Part shown: positions 34,797 through 43,459 of the stretch, one piece after another
Position numbering within the stretch: position 1 is the first letter of the stretch
Layout: each line of letters starts with the position of its first letter
Source of the DNA: Pseudohongiella sp.
Lineage (GTDB): Bacteria; Pseudomonadota; Gammaproteobacteria; Pseudomonadales; Pseudohongiellaceae
Length of the DNA: 53,484 nt
NCBI GenBank assembly: GCA_030696315.1
Contig: JAUYSM010000047.1
Span: 1-53,484 of the forward strand
Direction of reading: 5' to 3'
Program-made: the position numbers and the translations under genes
The notes under the pieces: model-generated
The model's database searches: none
Told to the model about the DNA's origin: nothing
Seen by the model: only the letters and a program-made list of their open reading frames with translations

Positions 34797-36512
34797 CTAG
34801 GCAATCTTACGGACTGGTTTCACCAGCAACTCATGCCCTTTGAGCATACCGTGCCAATACAGCGGCGGCAGCATGCTCTTTTTCATATGCCACGCCAAAG
34901 ACGTAGCATGTGTACCATTCAATACCCAATTCGGCAGACTGGGTGCCAGCTTTCCACCATAAGCAAATTCAGCGAGCACAATTTTGCCGCGTTCAACGGT
35001 CAAAGGACATGACCCATAACCGTCATATTGGTACTCTTGGGGTAGGCCTTTAATATCGTTGATGATATTAGCAGCTACCACTGGCACCTGCTTACGTACA
35101 GCGGCCGCCGTTTTGGCATTGGGCGTATTGGTCGCATCGCCCAGCCCCCAGATATTGCTATAGCGCTTGTGTTGCAGCGTCACTGGGTCTACATCAACCC
35201 AACCAGCAGCATCCGCCAACGGGCTGTTCCGGATAAAGTCAGGTGCTGACTGCGGTGGGCAGACATGTATCATATCAAACGCTTGTTTGATCTGAGTCGT
35301 CATGCCATTTGCGTCAGTTTTTTCAAACCAGGCAGTCTTTTTATCGCCGTCCACCTTTACCAATCGGTGCATAAAGTTGAGCTCAGCCTTGTATTTATCC
35401 ATATAGGATTGCAAGGCCGGCACGTAGTCCTTAACACCAAAAAGTACTGCACCTGCGTTAAAAAATTTGATCTGAATGTCTTGCAACACATGTTGCTGCA
35501 ACCAGTGATCCGCAGACAGATACAACGCTTTCTGAGGAGCACCGGCACATTTGATGGGCATAGGTGGCTGAGTGAATACAGCCACACCTTGCTTGAGATT
35601 CTGGACCAGCTCCCACGTGTAAGGAGCGAGATCCGCACGGTAGTTGGACGTAACGCCGTTTTTCCCGAGCGACTCCGTCAAACCCTCTATCGCGGACCAG
35701 TTCAACTTGATGCCGGGACAGACAATCATTCTTTTGTAATGAATTCGGCTGCCGTCACTCAGTACCAACGCATTGTTGTCAGGCTCAAAACGCTCCGCAG
35801 CCGCTTGTATCCAGGTCACACCTTGCGGAATCAATGTTGCCATGCTGCGCTTATTCTGCTCAGACTTGAAGATACCGCCGCCTACCATGGTAAAACCGGG
35901 CTGGTAGTAGTGCGTCTCCGCAGGATCAATCAGCGCTATACGCAGGTATTTGTCCCTTGCCAGCAAACTGGATGCTACCGAAACACCTGATGCACCAGCA
36001 CCCACAATCACAACTTGAAATGACGTTTCATGAGCGCCCGCATCAATGCCCTTGGACATACCAGGTTGCATTGGCGACGGCGCAGTTAGCAACTTGATAT
36101 TTGCCGCATTTTTGGTCTTGAACTCGTTGAAATCAAAGCCTGCAACTGTTGCTGCAGCCACACAGTCATCCACAGAAATGCCTTCTGCGATACGCGCTAA
36201 TGACCACAATGTCATCGAGCGTTGACCCGATCGGCAATAAGCCAATACCGGGCCTGGCGCGTTATCACAGATATCTTTAAACGCACGCACATCAGAGACA
36301 GACAAGGACTCCTGGGTAACAGGCAGGTAGTGCAGTTTTATACCTTGATCACTCGCGCTTTCCAGAATTTCAGAGAATACGGGTTGCTTGTCTTCTCCGT
36401 CGGGGCGGTTGCAGATGATTGTTGTGAAACCACTGGCTACCAGACTGTGCACATCCGCTGCGCACAGCTGGTCAGACACAGAAAAAGAACTATTAATTTT
36501 TTTGATATTCAT
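34797..36512 (-). CDS. sqr: DUF442/rhodanese-like domain fused to sulfide:quinone oxidoreductase
   Basis: 571 residues, two domains. Residues 1-140 form a DUF442 (TIGR01244-type) domain with loop YCRSGQRS (Cys93), a CX4R loop like rhodaneses. Residues 165-571 match type II SQR (human SQOR type): FAD site VVIVGAGASG (168-176), KCAGAPQK with redox Cys322, GWVDVDPVTLQHKRY, and GLGDATNTPNAKTAAA. SQR oxidises sulfide to persulfide and reduces quinone at the inner membrane. In human SQOR the GD motif is followed by the second redox cysteine (GDCTN); here it is Ala460, while Cys265 (VCPGIKLNW) is an extra candidate. Last gene of the FisR-type operon. Such fusions are often labelled protein tyrosine phosphatase/FAD oxidoreductase. 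Confidence 0.9.
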   Translation of the reverse strand: MNIKKINSSFSVSDQLCAADVHSLVASGFTTIICNRPDGEDKQPVFSEILESASDQGIKLHYLPVTQESLSVSDVRAFKDICDNAPGPVLAYCRSGQRSMTLWSLARIAEGISVDDCVAAATVAGFDFNEFKTKNAANIKLLTAPSPMQPGMSKGIDAGAHETSFQVVIVGAGASGVSVASSLLARDKYLRIALIDPAETHYYQPGFTMVGGGIFKSEQNKRSMATLIPQGVTWIQAAAERFEPDNNALVLSDGSRIHYKRMIVCPGIKLNWSAIEGLTESLGKNGVTSNYRADLAPYTWELVQNLKQGVAVFTQPPMPIKCAGAPQKALYLSADHWLQQHVLQDIQIKFFNAGAVLFGVKDYVPALQSYMDKYKAELNFMHRLVKVDGDKKTAWFEKTDANGMTTQIKQAFDMIHVCPPQSAPDFIRNSPLADAAGWVDVDPVTLQHKRYSNIWGLGDATNTPNAKTAAAVRKQVPVVAANIINDIKGLPQEYQYDGYGSCPLTVERGKIVLAEFAYGGKLAPSLPNWVLNGTHATSLAWHMKKSMLPPLYWHGMLKGHELLVKPVRKIA

Positions 36513-36545
36513 TACTTTCTCCCGCAGCTTAATAGTTAATGTCTC

Positions 36546-37418
36546 TTAAAGTGCGTTAATTGGCACCTTCAGGTAAACCATGCCATTGTCATCTGAGGGC
36601 GGAAAGTGGCCAGCGCGCATATTCACCTGCAACGAAGGCAGTATCAGTACCGGCATATCGAGCGTAGCGTCACGCGCTTCACGCATCGCAACAAATTCGT
36701 CTTCTGAAATACCATCGCGAACATGAATGTTTTCGTTGCGTTCGGCAGCAACAGTTGTCTCATACTCTACCTCCCGACCATTCGGTTGGTAGTCGTGGCA
36801 CATGAACAGTCTTGTTTCACCAGGAAGGCTCAGCACTTTCTTGATCGACTGATAAAGAACCCGTGTGTTCCCTCCGGGAAAGTCCGCCCGCGCTGTGCCA
36901 CCATCAGGCATAAACAAGGTGTCACCTACAAATGCGGCATCGCCGATGAGGTGAGTCATGCAAGCTGGTGTATGCCCGGGTGTATGAATGGCAGTAGCCG
37001 TCAGACTTCCTATCTTATAAGTGTCACCATCATTGAACAATTGGTCAAACTGTGATCCATCACGCTGGAACTCTGGACCAGCATTAAACACTTGCCCGAA
37101 AACAGTCTGTACGGTTGTGATATGGGCTCCTATTCCTACTTTCCCACCCAGCTTTTCTTTGAGGTAGGGTGCTGCGGAAAGGTGATCTGCATGCACATGG
37201 GTTTCAATGATCCATTGAAGATCCAGATGATTACGTTTGATGAACTCGATTATCTCATCCGCACTGGTGTAACTCGTACGACCAGAGTTGTAATCAAGAT
37301 TCAGGACCGAATCAATGATGGCGCAGGCATTTGACTGCGGATCTTTGACAACATAGGAGAACGTGCTGGTCTGCTTGTCGTAAAAGGTTGAAACTTGTGG
37401 TTTTTGAGTATTGCTCAT
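36546..37418 (-). CDS. pdo: Persulfide dioxygenase, type II (Blh-like MBL fold)
   Basis: 290 residues from the ATG at 37418 with GGAG ten bases upstream; an ATG at 37457 is possible. Metallo-beta-lactamase fold with THVHADHLS (His74, His76, Asp78, His79), PGHTPAC, GDTLFMPDGGTARADFPGG and the late histidine in MCHDYQPNG. Iron-dependent persulfide dioxygenases oxidise glutathione persulfide to sulfite. The GTARADFPGG region and C-terminal PSLQVNMRAG are those of the type II (Blh) enzymes. In Blh proteins the DUF442 domain is fused to this enzyme; here it is on SQR, encoded 33 bases downstream. Confidence 0.93.
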   Translation of the reverse strand: MSNTQKPQVSTFYDKQTSTFSYVVKDPQSNACAIIDSVLNLDYNSGRTSYTSADEIIEFIKRNHLDLQWIIETHVHADHLSAAPYLKEKLGGKVGIGAHITTVQTVFGQVFNAGPEFQRDGSQFDQLFNDGDTYKIGSLTATAIHTPGHTPACMTHLIGDAAFVGDTLFMPDGGTARADFPGGNTRVLYQSIKKVLSLPGETRLFMCHDYQPNGREVEYETTVAAERNENIHVRDGISEDEFVAMREARDATLDMPVLILPSLQVNMRAGHFPPSDDNGMVYLKVPINAL

Positions 37419-37449
37419 AATGTCATTGCTCCTCTGTATCTCAGTGTGA

Positions 37450-38445
37450 TTATTCATAACTCAGTGTGGTGATCTTGCCGCGGAAAATTCTGTACACAAA
37501 AAACGTATATATAATAATTGCAGGTAGAACGACGGCTGTTCCCCAGAAAGTGAACAGCAATGAGTCCGTGCTTGAGGCGGATTCCCATATGGTCATTCGG
37601 CCAATAATGATGTCCGGAAGAATGCTGTACGCAAGACCAAGTGCTGCCAGCACACACAGCGCGATCAGGCCTGCGAACAACAACCATTCGCGACCATTTC
37701 GCAACACTTTCTGATCAGACAAAAGCCATAAAAGTCCTGCATAGATTGCAGCGCTCAGCAAGGGAATAGGGATCAGCTTCAGACCGTCAGGAAAACTGAA
37801 CCACTTGTCAGCAATTGTCTGACTGACCAAAGGAGTAGCAATTGACACCAGCAACAAAGCAAATCCCATCGGTAAAATGGCTTTTTTGGCCCAGCCTAAA
37901 GCCTTTGAAAACAACTCGCCTTCGGTCTTGATCAGTAGCCAGGCGGCTCCCAGAAGTATGTACAACGCAGGTAGCGTAATTGCGATCAGAATTGAAAACA
38001 GGTTACTGATTGCTGAGTTGCCCAGCCCGGTGATGTAGGTGCCCAGCATCCAACCTTGTGCCGACGCCATGACCAGCGATCCACCTGAGAATATGGCATT
38101 CCACATTTGTTTATGGTCGGCAACTGCTTTAGCTCTGAAGTCAAACGCAATCCCGCGCATCATCAAGCCCATCAACATCACTGTCACGGGGATATACATA
38201 GCAGTCAGGATGTCACCATGAGCTTTCGGAAAGGCAATCAGCAGTATGCCCACGCCGAGTACTATCCACGTTTCATTGGCGTCCCAGAACGGCCCGATAG
38301 ACGCGATCATCTGGTCTTTCTCTGGCTCAGACGCAAACGGCAGTAATAGGCCGATGCCAAGATCGTAGCCGTCCAGAATCACGTAGATCAGCAGCGCCAG
38401 TCCCATTGCACTTGCAAAAAACAAGGGTAGCCAGAATTCCAACAT
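37450..38445 (-). CDS. cydB: Cytochrome bd-type quinol oxidase subunit II
   Basis: 331 residues from the ATG at 38445, one base after the cydA stop, with GGAG nine bases upstream; a longer frame from 38478 lies inside cydA. Eight to nine hydrophobic helices; N-terminal FFASAMGLALLIYVILDGYDLGIG is the CydB signature, followed by IGPFWDANETWIV. Subunit II supports haem binding by subunit I. No cydX-like small gene fits in the 31 bases before pdo. Part of the sulfide operon, not next to cydCD assembly genes. Confidence 0.95.
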   Translation of the reverse strand: MLEFWLPLFFASAMGLALLIYVILDGYDLGIGLLLPFASEPEKDQMIASIGPFWDANETWIVLGVGILLIAFPKAHGDILTAMYIPVTVMLMGLMMRGIAFDFRAKAVADHKQMWNAIFSGGSLVMASAQGWMLGTYITGLGNSAISNLFSILIAITLPALYILLGAAWLLIKTEGELFSKALGWAKKAILPMGFALLLVSIATPLVSQTIADKWFSFPDGLKLIPIPLLSAAIYAGLLWLLSDQKVLRNGREWLLFAGLIALCVLAALGLAYSILPDIIIGRMTIWESASSTDSLLFTFWGTAVVLPAIIIYTFFVYRIFRGKITTLSYE

Positions 38446-38446
38446 G

Positions 38447-39826
38447 TTACGCTCCTCGCTGTTGAGGGTTATTGTCACCAGCGACTGTAAATTGCTTTAG
38501 CCCTGCAACCAGAGAGGCTGCCGGCTTTGTAGAGAGATACCGTAGAGTGGCGATGTAAGACACCAGTACAAAAATGTACAGCGCCATGTAGCCCGTAAAT
38601 GAACCCAGCATCACTCCTGTACTATGATCGGCAACAACGTCTTCGGCTTTGAGCAGCCCTTGAACTATCCATGGCTGTCGTCCAATTTCAGTAACGTACC
38701 AGCCTGCAAGCACCGCAACCCAACCTGAAAATGTCATCCACGATGCTGCATTCAGCAACCATGGGCCAGGTTTTTGTTTTAACTTGAATAGCTGCCATAC
38801 AGCCCACCAACTGATCAGTATCATCAGCATGCCAATCGCTACCATAATACGGAACGACCAGAACACAATGGCCACAGGAGGGTGTTCGCCTTCGAACTCA
38901 TTGAGTCCCCGGATCTCGCCGTCCAGTGTATGGGTAAGCACCAGGCTGGCAGCATAAGGAATCTGCACTGCGTATTTAGTAGTGCGGGTCTCCTCATCGG
39001 GAAAACCAAACAGCGTGAATGGCACATGTGTTTCTGTGTGCCAGATGCCTTCGATTGCCGCAATCTTGGCCGGCTGATGTTCCATGGTGTTTAATCCGTG
39101 CAGGTCACCAACAAAGACTTGCAAGGGGGCAAGGAGCGCTGCGATAACAGCCACCGATTTAAAAACTTTTGTTGTTGCGGGGCCGTCGACCTTTTGTTTC
39201 ATGCGCCAGGCGCTTATTCCCATAACCAGGAATGCGGCGGTCAACATGGAAGCAATCAACATGTGGGCAAGCCGATATGGAAATGACGGATTGAAGATGA
39301 CTGCCATCCAGCTATCCACAAAAAATACGCCATCTCTGATGACGTAACCAGTCGGTGTTTGCATCCAGGAGTTCAGACTCAGAATCCAGAACGCTGACAG
39401 GGTAGTACCAAAAGCGACCAGAGCGCACGCGAGCAAGTGGGTGGCGTTGGAAACACGATTTTTCCCAAACAGCATGACCCCCAGGAAAGTCGCTTCCAGG
39501 AAAAAGGCGGTTAGCACTTCATAACCCAGCAAAGGCCCGGAAATATTTCCGGTTCGTTCCATAAAACCTGGCCAATTGGTGCCAAACTGAAAGCTCATTG
39601 TTATGCCTGATACCACACCAATTGCAAAGCTTAGAGCAAATATTTTTACCCAGAAATGGTAGGCGTTTTCCCAGTGTGTATCTTTGGTGAGTGTGTAGCG
39701 CATGCGGAAGAACAGCAGAATCCAGCCCAGGCCGATGGTAATTGACGGGAAAAGGATATGAAAACTTATGTTTGCGGCGAACTGTGCACGCGCAAGAACA
39801 AACGGGTCGAAATCCATCATGATCAT
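38447..39826 (-). CDS. cydA: Cytochrome bd-type quinol oxidase subunit I, CIO-like
   Basis: 459 residues. Binds three haems and oxidises quinol while reducing oxygen to water. Seen: ARAQFAANISFHILFPSITIG (haem b595 ligand His), GLNTMEHQPAKIAAIEG, the late GRQPW motif, and nine or so membrane helices. The loop between helices VI and VII (Q-loop) is short, as in the cyanide-insensitive oxidase CioA of Pseudomonas, instead of the long E. coli type. Such oxidases tolerate sulfide and cyanide, which suits a place in a sulfide-oxidation operon (inference). Several in-frame ATGs cluster at the start (39826, 39820, 39817). Confidence 0.95.
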   Translation of the reverse strand: MIMMDFDPFVLARAQFAANISFHILFPSITIGLGWILLFFRMRYTLTKDTHWENAYHFWVKIFALSFAIGVVSGITMSFQFGTNWPGFMERTGNISGPLLGYEVLTAFFLEATFLGVMLFGKNRVSNATHLLACALVAFGTTLSAFWILSLNSWMQTPTGYVIRDGVFFVDSWMAVIFNPSFPYRLAHMLIASMLTAAFLVMGISAWRMKQKVDGPATTKVFKSVAVIAALLAPLQVFVGDLHGLNTMEHQPAKIAAIEGIWHTETHVPFTLFGFPDEETRTTKYAVQIPYAASLVLTHTLDGEIRGLNEFEGEHPPVAIVFWSFRIMVAIGMLMILISWWAVWQLFKLKQKPGPWLLNAASWMTFSGWVAVLAGWYVTEIGRQPWIVQGLLKAEDVVADHSTGVMLGSFTGYMALYIFVLVSYIATLRYLSTKPAASLVAGLKQFTVAGDNNPQQRGA

Positions 39827-39889
39827 TGGCCTGAAGACGCGAAAAAAATGGAAGTCCCGACAATTGACGAGACTTCCTCAAAACCTTCC

Positions 39890-40528
39890 TTACAGGGACT
39901 TCTTGCAGAAGTAATAGTCAGTACATTCGTACTCACCTGACGTCATCCTGCGGGTAGCCTCGGCAACAGTTTTGGCGGGAGGCACGATCACCTTGTCGCC
40001 AGGCTGCCAACCTTCCGGGGTTGCCACACTATGTTTGTCGCTGGTTTGCAGGGCTGCCAACAAACGCAGGAACTCTGCGATCGACCTGCCGTTGGTCATC
40101 GGGTAATACACCATTGCCCGCAGCTTGCCTTCGGGATCGATCAGAAACGTTGCTCGTACCGCTGATGTATCAGAGGCACCCTCATGGATCATGCCATACG
40201 CTCTTGCTACATCCATTTTCAAGTCATCGATGATTGGGAACGGAATATCCACACCAAATTTTTCTTTGATGTTGAGCACCCAGGCAATGTGAGAGTGAGT
40301 ACTGTCAATGGACAACCCCAGCAACTCTGCATCCAGTTTTGCAAAATCAGGTGCGGCTTTGGCAAATGCCATGAACTCCGTCGTGCACACCGGGGTAAAA
40401 TCCGCCGGGTGAGAAAACAGCACTAACCACTTGCCACGGTAGTCGCTGAGCGACTTGACACCATGTGTTGTAGGCGCAGTAAAGTCTGGTGCTGCTTCGT
40501 TCAATCTGGGCAATCCGATTGTGCTCAT
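39890..40528 (-). CDS. Prx6-type peroxiredoxin
   Basis: 212 residues. Peroxidatic site HPADFTPVCTTEF with Cys47, and RATFLIDPEGKLRAM, are typical of the 1-Cys/Prx6 group. Two further cysteines lie at the end (YECTDYYFCKK), as in thioredoxin-independent archaeal-type members, where they serve as resolving cysteines. Likely reduces peroxides and could act on per- or polysulfides. AAGAGGA precedes the ATG. It is the first gene after the sigma-54 promoter at 40580-40595 and so is expected to be co-induced with cydAB, pdo and sqr. Confidence 0.93.
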   Translation of the reverse strand: MSTIGLPRLNEAAPDFTAPTTHGVKSLSDYRGKWLVLFSHPADFTPVCTTEFMAFAKAAPDFAKLDAELLGLSIDSTHSHIAWVLNIKEKFGVDIPFPIIDDLKMDVARAYGMIHEGASDTSAVRATFLIDPEGKLRAMVYYPMTNGRSIAEFLRLLAALQTSDKHSVATPEGWQPGDKVIVPPAKTVAEATRRMTSGEYECTDYYFCKKSL

Positions 40529-40579
40529 AGATTTATCCTCTTAAAATCAGTTTATTAATACAAATCACAGTATGTGTTT

Positions 40580-40595
40580 TGCAGATACCGTGCCA
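40580..40595 (-). promoter_or_regulatory. Sigma-54 (RpoN) promoter of prx-cydAB-pdo-sqr
   Basis: Minus strand TGGCACGGTATCTGCA agrees with consensus TGGCACG-N4-TTGCW except for one base, and GG and GC are separated by exactly ten bases. The start would be near 40569, giving a 41-base leader to the peroxiredoxin ATG. The divergent gene encodes the sigma-54 activator this promoter would need. Confidence 0.85.
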
Positions 40596-40702
40596 CACAT
40601 AGGTCTGGACAGCACATTATTTGCAAGCAAATGATATTTAATAATAAATTCGGTATAGCGTGAGCTAAGCTAAGTCCAGAAAGACTTTTTCCTGACCTAG
40701 AA

Positions 40703-40729
40703 TTGACATGTTCGACAAAATGATTGTCA
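40703..40729. promoter_or_regulatory. Candidate FisR upstream activator site and fisR -35 region
   Basis: Contains the perfect dyad GACAA-N5-TTGTC (40714-40728) nested in a wider TTGACA...TTGTCA arrangement, with a further TTCGACA half-site. It lies about 135-160 bases upstream of the predicted sigma-54 transcription start, the usual distance for an enhancer-binding protein. The leftmost TTGACA (40703-40708) could also be the -35 box of fisR, which would give autoregulation; its -10 box (TCATAT, 18-base spacer) is weak. Confidence 0.45.
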
Positions 40730-40757
40730 TATATGGCAATCTTTAGGAGTAAGAACC

Positions 40758-42062
40758 ATGCAACTGATTGCCTCGGACAAACACGCAGATCTTGCCGCTA
40801 TCCTGGACGGCTTTGATGTGCCAGCAATTCTGGTCAGCGCTGATTACTTGATACTGGCAACCAATCGCAACTACCGTGAAGCGTTTGGGGACATCGAACA
40901 CCTGACGTCACCTCGTTGTTACGGTGTCTCTCATGGCTTTGATGTGCCCTGCGACCAAGCAGGCGAAAGCTGTCCTTTAAGTGCCGCGCGCGAATCTGGC
41001 AATAAAGAACGAGTCCTCCACATTCACCAGACCCCACGTGGCCGGGAACACGTTGATGTTGAGATGCTGCCGATTAAAGCAGCAGATGGCACGCTGAAGT
41101 ACTTTGTTGAGCTGTTGAAACACGTACCGGTCGCCAGCGCCGAGATCAGTGATGTCGACATGGTGGGCAGCAGCCCCGCCTTTAATGCCATGCTGGAAAA
41201 CATCACGCGGGTTGGTCCGACCGATGCGTCTGTCTTGTTGCTGGGTGAATCTGGCACCGGTAAAGAATTGGCGGCGCTTGCCATCCACCAGGCAAGCAAG
41301 CGCAGTCAGGCAGCCATGGTGACACTCGAGTGCTCCGGTCTGACTGATACCCTGTTCGAAAGTGAGTTGTTCGGTCATGTCAAAGGCGCATTTACCGGCG
41401 CCGTGTTCAATTCGCCTGGCTTGATCGAGGCTGCAGATGGCGGCACCTTATTCCTGGATGAAATTGGTGATGTGCCCATGCAAATGCAAGTCAAACTCTT
41501 GCGCCTGATCGAAACCGGCACCTATCGACCAGTTGGCAGTCGCGAAAGCAAACGCGCTGATTTTCGTCTTGTTTGTGCGACACACAAAAATATTCTGGAT
41601 ATGGTGAATAATGGACTGTTTCGACAGGATCTGTACTACCGTATCAATGTATTCCCAATCCACATGCCTTCACTGCTTGAACGTATCTCCGACATTCCCC
41701 TGCTGGCAAACTCGATCGTACAAAAGCTTGATCGTAGCGGCAGGCACATACTGACCGACTCAGCCATACGTGAATTAAAAAAGCTATCCTTCGCGGGGAA
41801 CATTCGAGAGTTGCGCAATATACTCGCGCGCGCCTTAGTCTTGACGAATACCCACGTCATTGATGGCAAAGTGATCAGGCAATGTCTTTCAATCGATCCA
41901 CATAATCTGCCGCCCGCTGACTCTGAGCCGGTCGACCTTAAGACCAATGAAACACTTTACCTTCAAAAACTGTTGGCCCGCTGCAACGGTGACAAAAACA
42001 AAGCTGCCGCAATTGCAGGCATCAGTGCTCGTTCACTTTACAGAAAACTGGGCGAGGAATAA
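40758..42062 (+). CDS. fisR: Sigma-54-dependent persulfide-responsive activator FisR
   Basis: 434 residues. The N-terminal sensor domain (1-125, PAS-like) has Cys54, Cys65 and Cys72 ([21 protein letters not shown]); FisR of Cupriavidus senses persulfide through three cysteines with the same 11/7 spacing (positions 53, 64, 71 as I recall). AAA+ domain: Walker A GESGTGKE (163-170), sigma-54 contact GAFTGA (210-215), Walker [12 protein letters not shown] (228-238). C-terminal Fis-type helix-turn-helix [25 protein letters not shown] precedes the ATG. Divergent from the sulfide operon whose sigma-54 promoter it probably activates. Confidence 0.92.
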
Positions 42063-42109: not shown

Positions 42110-42253
42110 TTACTTGTCAGTCACTTTGGTCATTTGTTTGCCGCAGCAAATTTCCGAATGCGCCATCTTGTCTCCGCAAGGGCAACCCTTAGTGTAAACA
42201 AGCTCTGCTTTGCAGGATTCACATACATAACGTTCGCCAACTTCTCGTGACAT
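42110..42253 (-). CDS. Small Cys-rich zinc-ribbon/desulforedoxin-like protein
   Basis: 47 residues: MSREVGERYVCESCKAELV begins the protein, with Cys11/Cys14 as a CxxC knuckle, then CPC (Cys24, Cys26) and adjacent CC (Cys36, Cys37) in SEICCGKQM. The ERYVCESC...CCGKQM frame resembles desulforedoxin/rubredoxin-like metal knuckles. GAGG lies ten bases before the ATG. It is convergent with fisR, 48 bases away. Function is unknown; a redox or metal-binding role next to sulfide genes is only suggested by position. Confidence 0.75.
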   Translation of the reverse strand: MSREVGERYVCESCKAELVYTKGCPCGDKMAHSEICCGKQMTKVTDK

Positions 42254-42475: not shown

Positions 42476-43459
42476 ATGTCAGCAAAAACCGCGTTGATTA
42501 ATGTCAGTGGCATGCACTGCACTGGCTGTGAGACTACCATTGCGCGAGCCATCTCTGAGTTGCCTGGCGTACAGACAGTTACTGCAAGCTATCCAAAGTC
42601 AGAAGTCACGGTGACATTTGATTCCAATAGGGTTGACGAAAGCGCAATTTCATCGGCTATCACCGCAGCAGGATATACCGTAACAAAAACCCCGGCACCA
42701 AAAAGCACGTTACCTGCGTGGTTAATCTTTGCGGCACTATTGATTGTTATAGGCAGTGTAGTTTTCTGGGGCAGAAGTCAAATGCCGGGTGTCATGCAAC
42801 AACTGAATGCGCAGATGAGTTATGCGCTGTTGTTTACAATTGGGGTGCTGACCGGATTCCACTGCATTGGCATGTGCGGTAGTTTTGTAGTGAATTACGC
42901 GAGGGCTTGCGAAACACGGGCACAGGCTGTTCGAGCGCATTTTGCTTATGGCAGCGGTAAAACGCTCTCCTACGTCATGATAGGAGCAGGGTTTGGTTTA
43001 TTGGGCGCGCTGATCACCATCACACCGCAGATGCGCGGCATCGCGGCATTGCTCGCCGGTGTTTTCCTGTTGCTGTTTGGACTAAAAATGCTGAACGTGT
43101 GGCCCGCGCTGCGTCGCCTGAATATTCGTTTGCCTGCTGCATTTACGCGAGAAGTGGCCAGCGAAATCCATCAGCGAAAACACCCGTTTGTTATTGGACT
43201 GCTCAATGGCCTGTTGCTTGGTTGTGGTCCTTTGCAGGCGATGTACATCATGGCCGCAGGCACAGGCGACCCTGTGCAAGGTGGTTTTCTGCTGTTCTTT
43301 TTTGGTCTTGGTACCTTACCGCCTTTGCTCGGGTATGGGTTTTTCGCAAATGTGTTGTCCGCCAAAGCCGTTGGTGAAATGGTAAGAGTGTCTGGCATCT
43401 TGGTGATTGCTATGGGAATAATGATGGCGCAACGCGGTATTGGATTCTTGAGCATGTAA
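42476..43459 (+). CDS. HMA domain fused to TauE/SafE-like membrane protein
   Basis: 327 residues. Residues 1-72 are a heavy-metal-associated domain with metal site GMHCTGC. Residues about 80-327 form a six- to seven-helix domain of the sulfite exporter TauE/SafE (DsbD/UreH-like) group, with GFHCIGMCGSFVVNYARAC and GLLNGLLLGCGPLQAMY, both Cys/His-bearing helices. Related proteins are encoded near cytochrome cbb3 oxidase maturation genes in Pseudomonas, and the cargo is suspected to be copper. AAGGAAA precedes the ATG. The helicase gene begins eight bases downstream. Confidence 0.88.
   Translation: MSAKTALINVSGMHCTGCETTIARAISELPGVQTVTASYPKSEVTVTFDSNRVDESAISSAITAAGYTVTKTPAPKSTLPAWLIFAALLIVIGSVVFWGRSQMPGVMQQLNAQMSYALLFTIGVLTGFHCIGMCGSFVVNYARACETRAQAVRAHFAYGSGKTLSYVMIGAGFGLLGALITITPQMRGIAALLAGVFLLLFGLKMLNVWPALRRLNIRLPAAFTREVASEIHQRKHPFVIGLLNGLLLGCGPLQAMYIMAAGTGDPVQGGFLLFFFGLGTLPPLLGYGFFANVLSAKAVGEMVRVSGILVIAMGIMMAQRGIGFLSM

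Follow-up and report, generated by a model that had tools for sequence, protein, structure and literature searches.

Can a persulfide sensor of the FisR type govern a respiratory oxidase along with the genes for sulfide oxidation? The question is raised by a locus of Pseudohongiella sp. (assembly GCA_030696315.1, contig JAUYSM010000047.1; the window denotes the whole stretch analysed, 53,484 nucleotides), in which fisR is divergent from prx-cydA-cydB-pdo-sqr, genes for a peroxiredoxin (Prx), a cytochrome bd oxidase (CydAB), a persulfide dioxygenase (PDO) and a sulfide:quinone oxidoreductase (SQR). An original prediction, made from the sequence alone, saw here one operon behind a single sigma-54 promoter that joins sulfide oxidation to a dedicated bd oxidase. 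We recover its gene set and order as six open frames (Table 1), and the observed cluster is real and conserved. The joint role it envisaged is supported in part: the recurring gene order, the sigma-54 sites and the upstream palindromes found in pairs favour a predicted control by FisR of cydAB as well as of pdo and sqr, while 'one operon' and 'dedicated' (see below) need to be qualified. To our minds, the best explanation - with a probability of roughly 80% - is a persulfide-triggered respiratory switch, in which FisR and sigma-54 would turn on both sulfide oxidation and the bd oxidase.

Gene products and promoter of the locus

FisR combines a sensor domain with AAA+ and Fis-type helix-turn-helix (HTH) domains and carries the predicted cysteine spacing CX10CX6C (C54, C65, C72), all three residues being kept in 53/53 aligned homologues (an alignment without the cut protein of genome G118 and nine class-level loci with short flanks). 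It is divergent from a sigma-54 promoter, itself predicted by sequence, of pdo/sqr genes, and the host genome holds an RpoN gene, one FisR N-domain match and two SQR matches. With TGGCAC-N5-YTGCW as the window-wide search pattern, the only exact sigma-54 site is the one originally placed before prx; sites with one mismatch are no more frequent than chance since 12 matches with at most one mismatch compare with 8.17 expected. Upstream of this promoter lie two palindromes (candidate FisR sites), whose pair score of 22/24 was reached in 0/100 shuffles. Their motif was derived from most of the divergent gaps that we later scored with it, so palindrome scores in such gaps are partly circular.

CydA aligns with both halves of E. 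coli CydA and lacks a counterpart of the segment past about residue 314 (~315-377); hence it is of the short-Q-loop type, just as had been proposed. H23, H188, M328, K254, E259, E103 and E111 are matched in E. coli CydA and do not vary across our alignment A1, and we take them to be haem ligands or quinol-site residues. The closest named CydA among the matches listed (94% identity) is from a Pseudohongiella metagenome-assembled genome (MAG). In the host genome, the oxidase of the locus is the one CydA match, no second being found, next to three matches to the COX1 family, which can include nitric oxide reductases.

PDO is closest to 4efz and 4ysk by sequence comparison with solved chains and can be aligned to the dioxygenase half of Blh. 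SQR has an N-terminal domain matching BLH_phosphatase (9.8e-22) and TIGR01244 (4.9e-34), and its remainder aligns with human SQOR (6mp5, 6.2e-92) including the KCAGAPQK and SCPL cysteine motifs, i.e. the two redox cysteines and the FAD fold of human SQOR are found by alignment, with residue roles that are presumably the same. The DUF442 domain thereby swaps partners within one pathway: it is joined to SQR in the window (34797-36512) and to the dioxygenase in Blh. Successive pairs of genes from prx to sqr are 63, 1, 31 and 33 bases apart.

Table 1. Genes and candidate control elements of the fisR locus (window positions; E-values after Pfam names)
Feature	Position	Strand	Description
fisR	40758..42062	+	sigma-54 activator; open frame; Sigma54_activat 9.4e-64, HTH_8 3.1e-6
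palindrome TTGCCATATATGACAA	40724..40739	.	candidate FisR upstream activating site 1; 12/12 against TTGYCA-N4-TGRCAA
palindrome TTGTCGAACATGTCAA	40703..40718	.	candidate FisR upstream activating site 2; 10/12; 21 bp from site 1
promoter TGGCACGGTATCTGCA	40580..40595	-	sigma-54 -24/-12 site before prx; sole exact match in the window
prx	39890..40528	-	1-Cys-type (Prx6-like) peroxiredoxin; AhpC-TSA 3.1e-36, 1-cysPrx_C 5.6e-15
hairpin then ATTTTTTT	39850..39877	-	intrinsic-terminator-like, prx-cydA gap; 10 pairs and T-run
cydA	38447..39826	-	bd oxidase subunit I, short Q-loop; Cyt_bd_oxida_I 2.7e-160
cydB	37450..38445	-	bd oxidase subunit II; Cyt_bd_oxida_II 7.5e-77
pdo	36546..37418	-	persulfide dioxygenase, metallo-beta-lactamase fold; closest solved chains 4efz, 4ysk, 9g8t, E <1e-113
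sqr	34797..36512	-	DUF442 sulfurtransferase (aa 3-132) and human-SQOR-like sulfide:quinone oxidoreductase (aa 165-560)

Recurrence and ancestry of the layout

The original prediction had proposed a search for the same gene order in other genomes, and the layout does recur. Among 194 genomes of the order (E-value cut-offs 1e-60 for CydA, 1e-10 for the FisR N-domain and 1e-60 for the fused SQR), CydA was found in 102, the FisR N-domain in 34 and matches to the fused-SQR query in 65; from the CydA matches in these 102 genomes, we examined 60 loci, each over 8-20 kb. Twelve of the 34 FisR genomes have fisR divergent from (prx)cydAB-pdo-sqr, two (G135, G159) have it divergent from pdo-sqr-sulP-cydAB (SulP assigned by Pfam in L048), and another twelve have it divergent from pdo(-sqr) with no cydAB there (in G134, SQR gave no match). 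In five (G156, G177, G126, G173, G035), a FisR-like gene and a cydAB of the long-Q-loop type are divergent, and three are other or cut (contig ends in G031 and G118; a CydA-like gene 7.5 kb from FisR in G074). All in all, 19/34 genomes have a bd oxidase within their FisR locus or next to it, while a simple calculation for genes placed at random in 4 Mb gives an expectation well below one; pdo is in the FisR locus of 26/34 (12 + 2 + 12). Among the loci read, prx stands between fisR and cydA only in the window, L035 and L191. A CsoR-like open reading frame (ORF) separates cydB from pdo in G192, and in L044 (11591-11872) the ORF found there resembles a CsoR/CstR repressor (Pfam Trns_repr_metal), a possible second persulfide sensor of that cluster.

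In a class-wide sample, the FisR N-domain was detected (at 1e-12) in 66/369 genomes, two of which belong to the order, and outside the order we analysed the best 29 loci by score (20 read as 7.6-20 kb, nine with 1.5 kb flanks). In seven of these 29, a FisR-like gene and long-Q-loop cydAB diverge across gaps of 0.4-1.6 kb; in L310, fisR is followed by pdo-cydA-cydB in addition to a divergent pdo-sqr. A scan of at least 80 CydA loci from named genomes had FisR, PDO or SQR nearby in 6/80, among the matches listed. Named relatives comprise Zhongshania aquimaris and Cellvibrionales UBA4495 (fisR divergent from cydAB-pdo-sqr), a Pseudohongiella MAG (fisR divergent from prx-cydA, the contig ending there), Spongiibacter thalassae (cydAB-pdo-sulfurtransferase-sulP, no FisR beside the locus) and a Burkholderiales MAG whose cydA locus has a MarR-type gene, prx and pdo. 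In a Moraxellaceae MAG (L263:4024-12345), an ArsR-family gene lies between sqr-prx and pdo-sulP-(Tll0287-like)-cydAB; it may be BigR/SqrR-like, and the locus is a comparable gene set with another class of regulator.

Trees of CydA/CydAB and of FisR place the window lineage apart from the main (Spongiibacteraceae-like) linked clade, and approximately unbiased (AU) tests, with both groups named after the trees had been inspected, do not reject a shared origin (p 0.17 for CydAB, 0.054 for FisR). L052 behaves differently in the two data sets: FisR rejects joining it to the main clade (p 0.0018) or the window lineage (p 0.0091), whereas CydAB does not (p 0.40). An independent origin of the short-Q-loop linkage, to which the rejection of all linked rows as one clade seemed to point, was dropped, that test being unfair because single losses break a clade. 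Since the fairer test leaves a single origin standing, we do not claim repeated gain within the short-Q-loop type. The long-Q-loop CydA is of a different family (~40% identity); its linkage thus appears to stem from a separate recruitment event.

Proposed control by FisR and its rivals

Sigma-54 sites scoring at least 9/11 precede 13/14 fisR-cydAB loci of the order (the exception being L048) and 10/12 loci with fisR divergent from pdo, in contrast to 5/30 control cydA upstreams not directly behind fisR (L036, L050, L053, L074, L075), controls which take in the cydA genes of L048 and L051. This comparison was made without L065, L071 and the more distant L078-L094, and among 1400 shuffled regions 53 reached a score of 9 and 11 a score of 10. 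Palindrome pairs of at least 20/24 were found in 14/15 divergent gaps (12 at order level, three from named loci) where shuffles peaked at 19, while neither the nine internal controls (0/9) nor three cydA genes without adjacent fisR (0/3) scored above 16. In the four loci of the order whose cydB and pdo are far apart (L041-L044; three lineages, since L041 and L042 are near-identical), pdo is preceded by a further pair (20-22/24) and by a sigma-54-like site that is weaker, and in L041 a GC-rich hairpin with a T-run, read by eye, directly follows cydB. Hence cydAB and pdo-sqr seem to form two FisR transcription units in these loci, and with a palindrome pair and sigma-54-like site to each, cydAB looks like a direct FisR target. 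These second pairs, the internal controls and the class-level loci are the less circular support for the palindromes. Among 12 long-Q-loop loci, the pair beats 200/200 shuffles in six and 199/200 in a seventh.

In ten distant FisR-like loci (L303, L304, L307-L309, L314-L317, L320), the best pairs are 30-33 bp apart rather than 21-22, about one extra helical turn, in a scan that allowed spacings of 20-23 and 29-34 bp. Two other uses of the motif were abandoned: a regulon scan of the own genome with one palindrome was too unspecific (44 + 56 matches, 5 + 10 in the control), and FisR control of the unlinked cydA in G040 (L053), which has a 10/12 half and a sigma-54 score of 9/11, fails on its pair score of 15/24, a value 50/100 shuffles reach.

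Several observations weigh against FisR control of the oxidase. In L052, the one divergent gap to fall short, the gene order is present without a clear palindrome pair (17/24, reached by 6/100 shuffles), and the cydA of Spongiibacter thalassae (L195), among the three without adjacent fisR, has a sigma-54 site (10/11) and no palindrome pair. The second promoters of L041-L044 have GT or GA in place of the -12 GC, the pair is not above shuffles in 5/12 long-Q-loop loci, and in L303, L306 and L318 FisR and cydA are more than 1 kb apart, so another gene may lie between them. Within the genus, G183 keeps a close cydAB without FisR or SQR match (PDO was not searched genome-wide), and G044 has fisR-pdo-sqr without prx-cydAB and without any CydA match at 1e-60; the linkage is therefore not fixed. 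(In G044, sqr reads as two overlapping pieces, L171:9256-10967, possibly a frameshift or a split gene.) 'Dedicated' is too strong a word for the oxidase for this reason, too, since it is the only CydA found in its genome while G183 retains cydAB on its own; added to this are the 12/34 fisR-pdo loci devoid of cydAB. Finally, neither a palindrome pair nor a good sigma-54 site precedes cydA, pdo or sqr in the window, and a terminator-like hairpin with T-run separates prx from cydA in 3/3 prx-bearing loci read.

This hairpin bears on the proposed single operon and speaks against a simple one. A terminator scan alone is not decisive, as it yields 11 sites against 7.8 in shuffles; yet the window hairpin folds better than 200/200 shuffles (z -3.61), the one in L191 better than 199/200 (z -3.59), and that of L035 has an unrelated stem sequence and a longer T-run. 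Hairpin and T-run suggest attenuated read-through, and in the simplest reading partial termination would provide more prx and, by read-through, less of the remaining genes. Alternatively, the hairpin may end the transcript, in which case prx alone would be strongly driven by FisR and cydAB-pdo-sqr mainly by a non-sigma-54 promoter of their own, e.g. an oxygen-responsive one inside prx. Such an arrangement, to which recurrence of the hairpin with an unrelated stem in L035 lends some weight, we consider unlikely, given that loci without prx have cydAB directly behind the FisR promoter, that G044 has pdo-sqr there, and that a simple scan for one promoter type saw no sigma-70-like site on the operon strand of 39850-40528.

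Under the persulfide-triggered switch that we favour, persulfide or polysulfide formed from sulfide would modify the three FisR cysteines, and FisR bound to the two palindromes would activate RNA polymerase with sigma-54 at the promoter in front of prx, so as to yield much prx transcript and, through the hairpin, cydAB-pdo-sqr. SQR would move electrons from sulfide oxidation into the quinone pool, its fused sulfurtransferase domain would hand the sulfane sulfur on to glutathione or another thiol, and PDO would oxidise this persulfide, giving sulfite. The bd oxidase, which lacks copper, would drain quinol to oxygen while haem-copper oxidases are blocked by sulfide, and Prx may clear peroxide or persulfide. 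That the CydAB of the window tolerates sulfide we infer by analogy with the cyanide-insensitive oxidase (CIO) of Pseudomonas aeruginosa and with E. coli bd.

Whether persulfide is the signal may be asked as well, for Prx is within the unit and FisR-like genes occur beside cydAB with neither pdo nor sqr at the locus, as if the sensor responded to some other thiol-reactive or oxidant cue and the pathway were one arm of a wider redox response. We regard this as rather improbable in view of the three cysteines kept throughout the aligned homologues and of the frequency of pdo in FisR loci of the order. Least probable is that cydAB, as a general low-oxygen or stress oxidase, merely sits beside the sulfide genes by descent or hitch-hiking: within the same clade many cydAB are on their own, the host has no other CydA that we found and a single origin followed by losses is not rejected by the AU tests, but three arrangements, the occurrence of FisR-like genes next to another bd family, the separate promoters of FisR type before cydAB and before pdo-sqr, and the comparable Moraxellaceae gene set around an ArsR-family gene argue otherwise.

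Downstream of fisR, the window further contains a Cys-rich 47-aa ORF resembling a small metal-binding protein (42110-42253, minus strand) and a gene whose product joins an HMA domain to a DsbD-like membrane domain (42476-43459, plus strand), a counterpart of which adjoins fisR in L191 too.

Relation to known sulfide-responsive systems

In a wider sense, FisR-family sensors probably provide a general link from sulfide to bd oxidases in Gammaproteobacteria, having taken over at least two kinds of them (short-Q-loop with pdo-sqr, long-Q-loop alone) via tandem palindromes and sigma-54, with two separate FisR promoters for oxidase and sulfide oxidation in some lineages. If true, and counting YgaV of E. 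coli, sulfide sensors of more than one family would have come to control bd oxidases. The locus brings a FisR-type sensor together with its probable binding sites and with the oxidase, a circuit open to direct testing in which the removal of sulfide would be coupled to respiration that resists it, and the candidate motif can be used to seek the same link elsewhere.

We found no title or abstract describing fisR-cydAB-pdo-sqr in the open-licence literature, which is weak as evidence of absence. The regulon that Li described in 2017 for FisR of Cupriavidus pinatubonensis JMP134 is reportedly without a bd oxidase. That FisR is otherwise alike, a three-cysteine sensor (PMC9774590) that activates sulfide-oxidising genes through sigma-54. 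No FisR-cydAB unit appears in the accessible parts of PMC5823870, PMC8148161, PMC9774590, PMC12856154 and PMC9405070. The bigR-blh operon of Xylella/Agrobacterium (PMC5823870) similarly places a DUF442 sulfurtransferase and a dioxygenase under a sulfide sensor; there, however, DUF442 is fused to the dioxygenase rather than to SQR, and the regulator here is FisR.

Several bacteria express more bd oxidase in response to sulfide, a sensor being named for E. coli (YgaV) and, in the accessible text of PMC7315123, none for cydAB of Acinetobacter baumannii. The CIO of P. aeruginosa, likewise of bd type, supports respiration that is unaffected by up to 320 uM sulfide, and cioA is modestly induced (about two-fold) by NaHS; no FisR or pdo link was seen there, though none was looked for, and 'sqr' has 0 occurrences in the text available (PMC10968556). 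In A. baumannii, much as in the window, fisR is divergent from a predicted sigma-54-dependent operon, pdo1-sqr-tauE-(homoserine dehydrogenase), and is required for sulfide induction of pdo1-sqr-tauE (PMC7315123). Its cydAB is sulfide-induced, too, but occupies a separate locus (A1S_1433-1434), tied to SQR only via the quinone pool and with no FisR control described in the accessible parts of that paper, whereas here cydAB lies between the FisR promoter and pdo-sqr. In E. coli, sulfide-responsive YgaV controls cydAB transcription (PMC9774250, PMC11858517), and the idea of a sulfide sensor governing bd is therefore not new; as described there, YgaV is of SqrR/BigR type with cydAB within a broad set, neither a FisR-type sigma-54 activator nor part of a cydAB-pdo-sqr unit. 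What is new here is the FisR-cydAB version of this control and its joint unit with pdo-sqr, by which a known regulon is widened rather than a new kind of system added.

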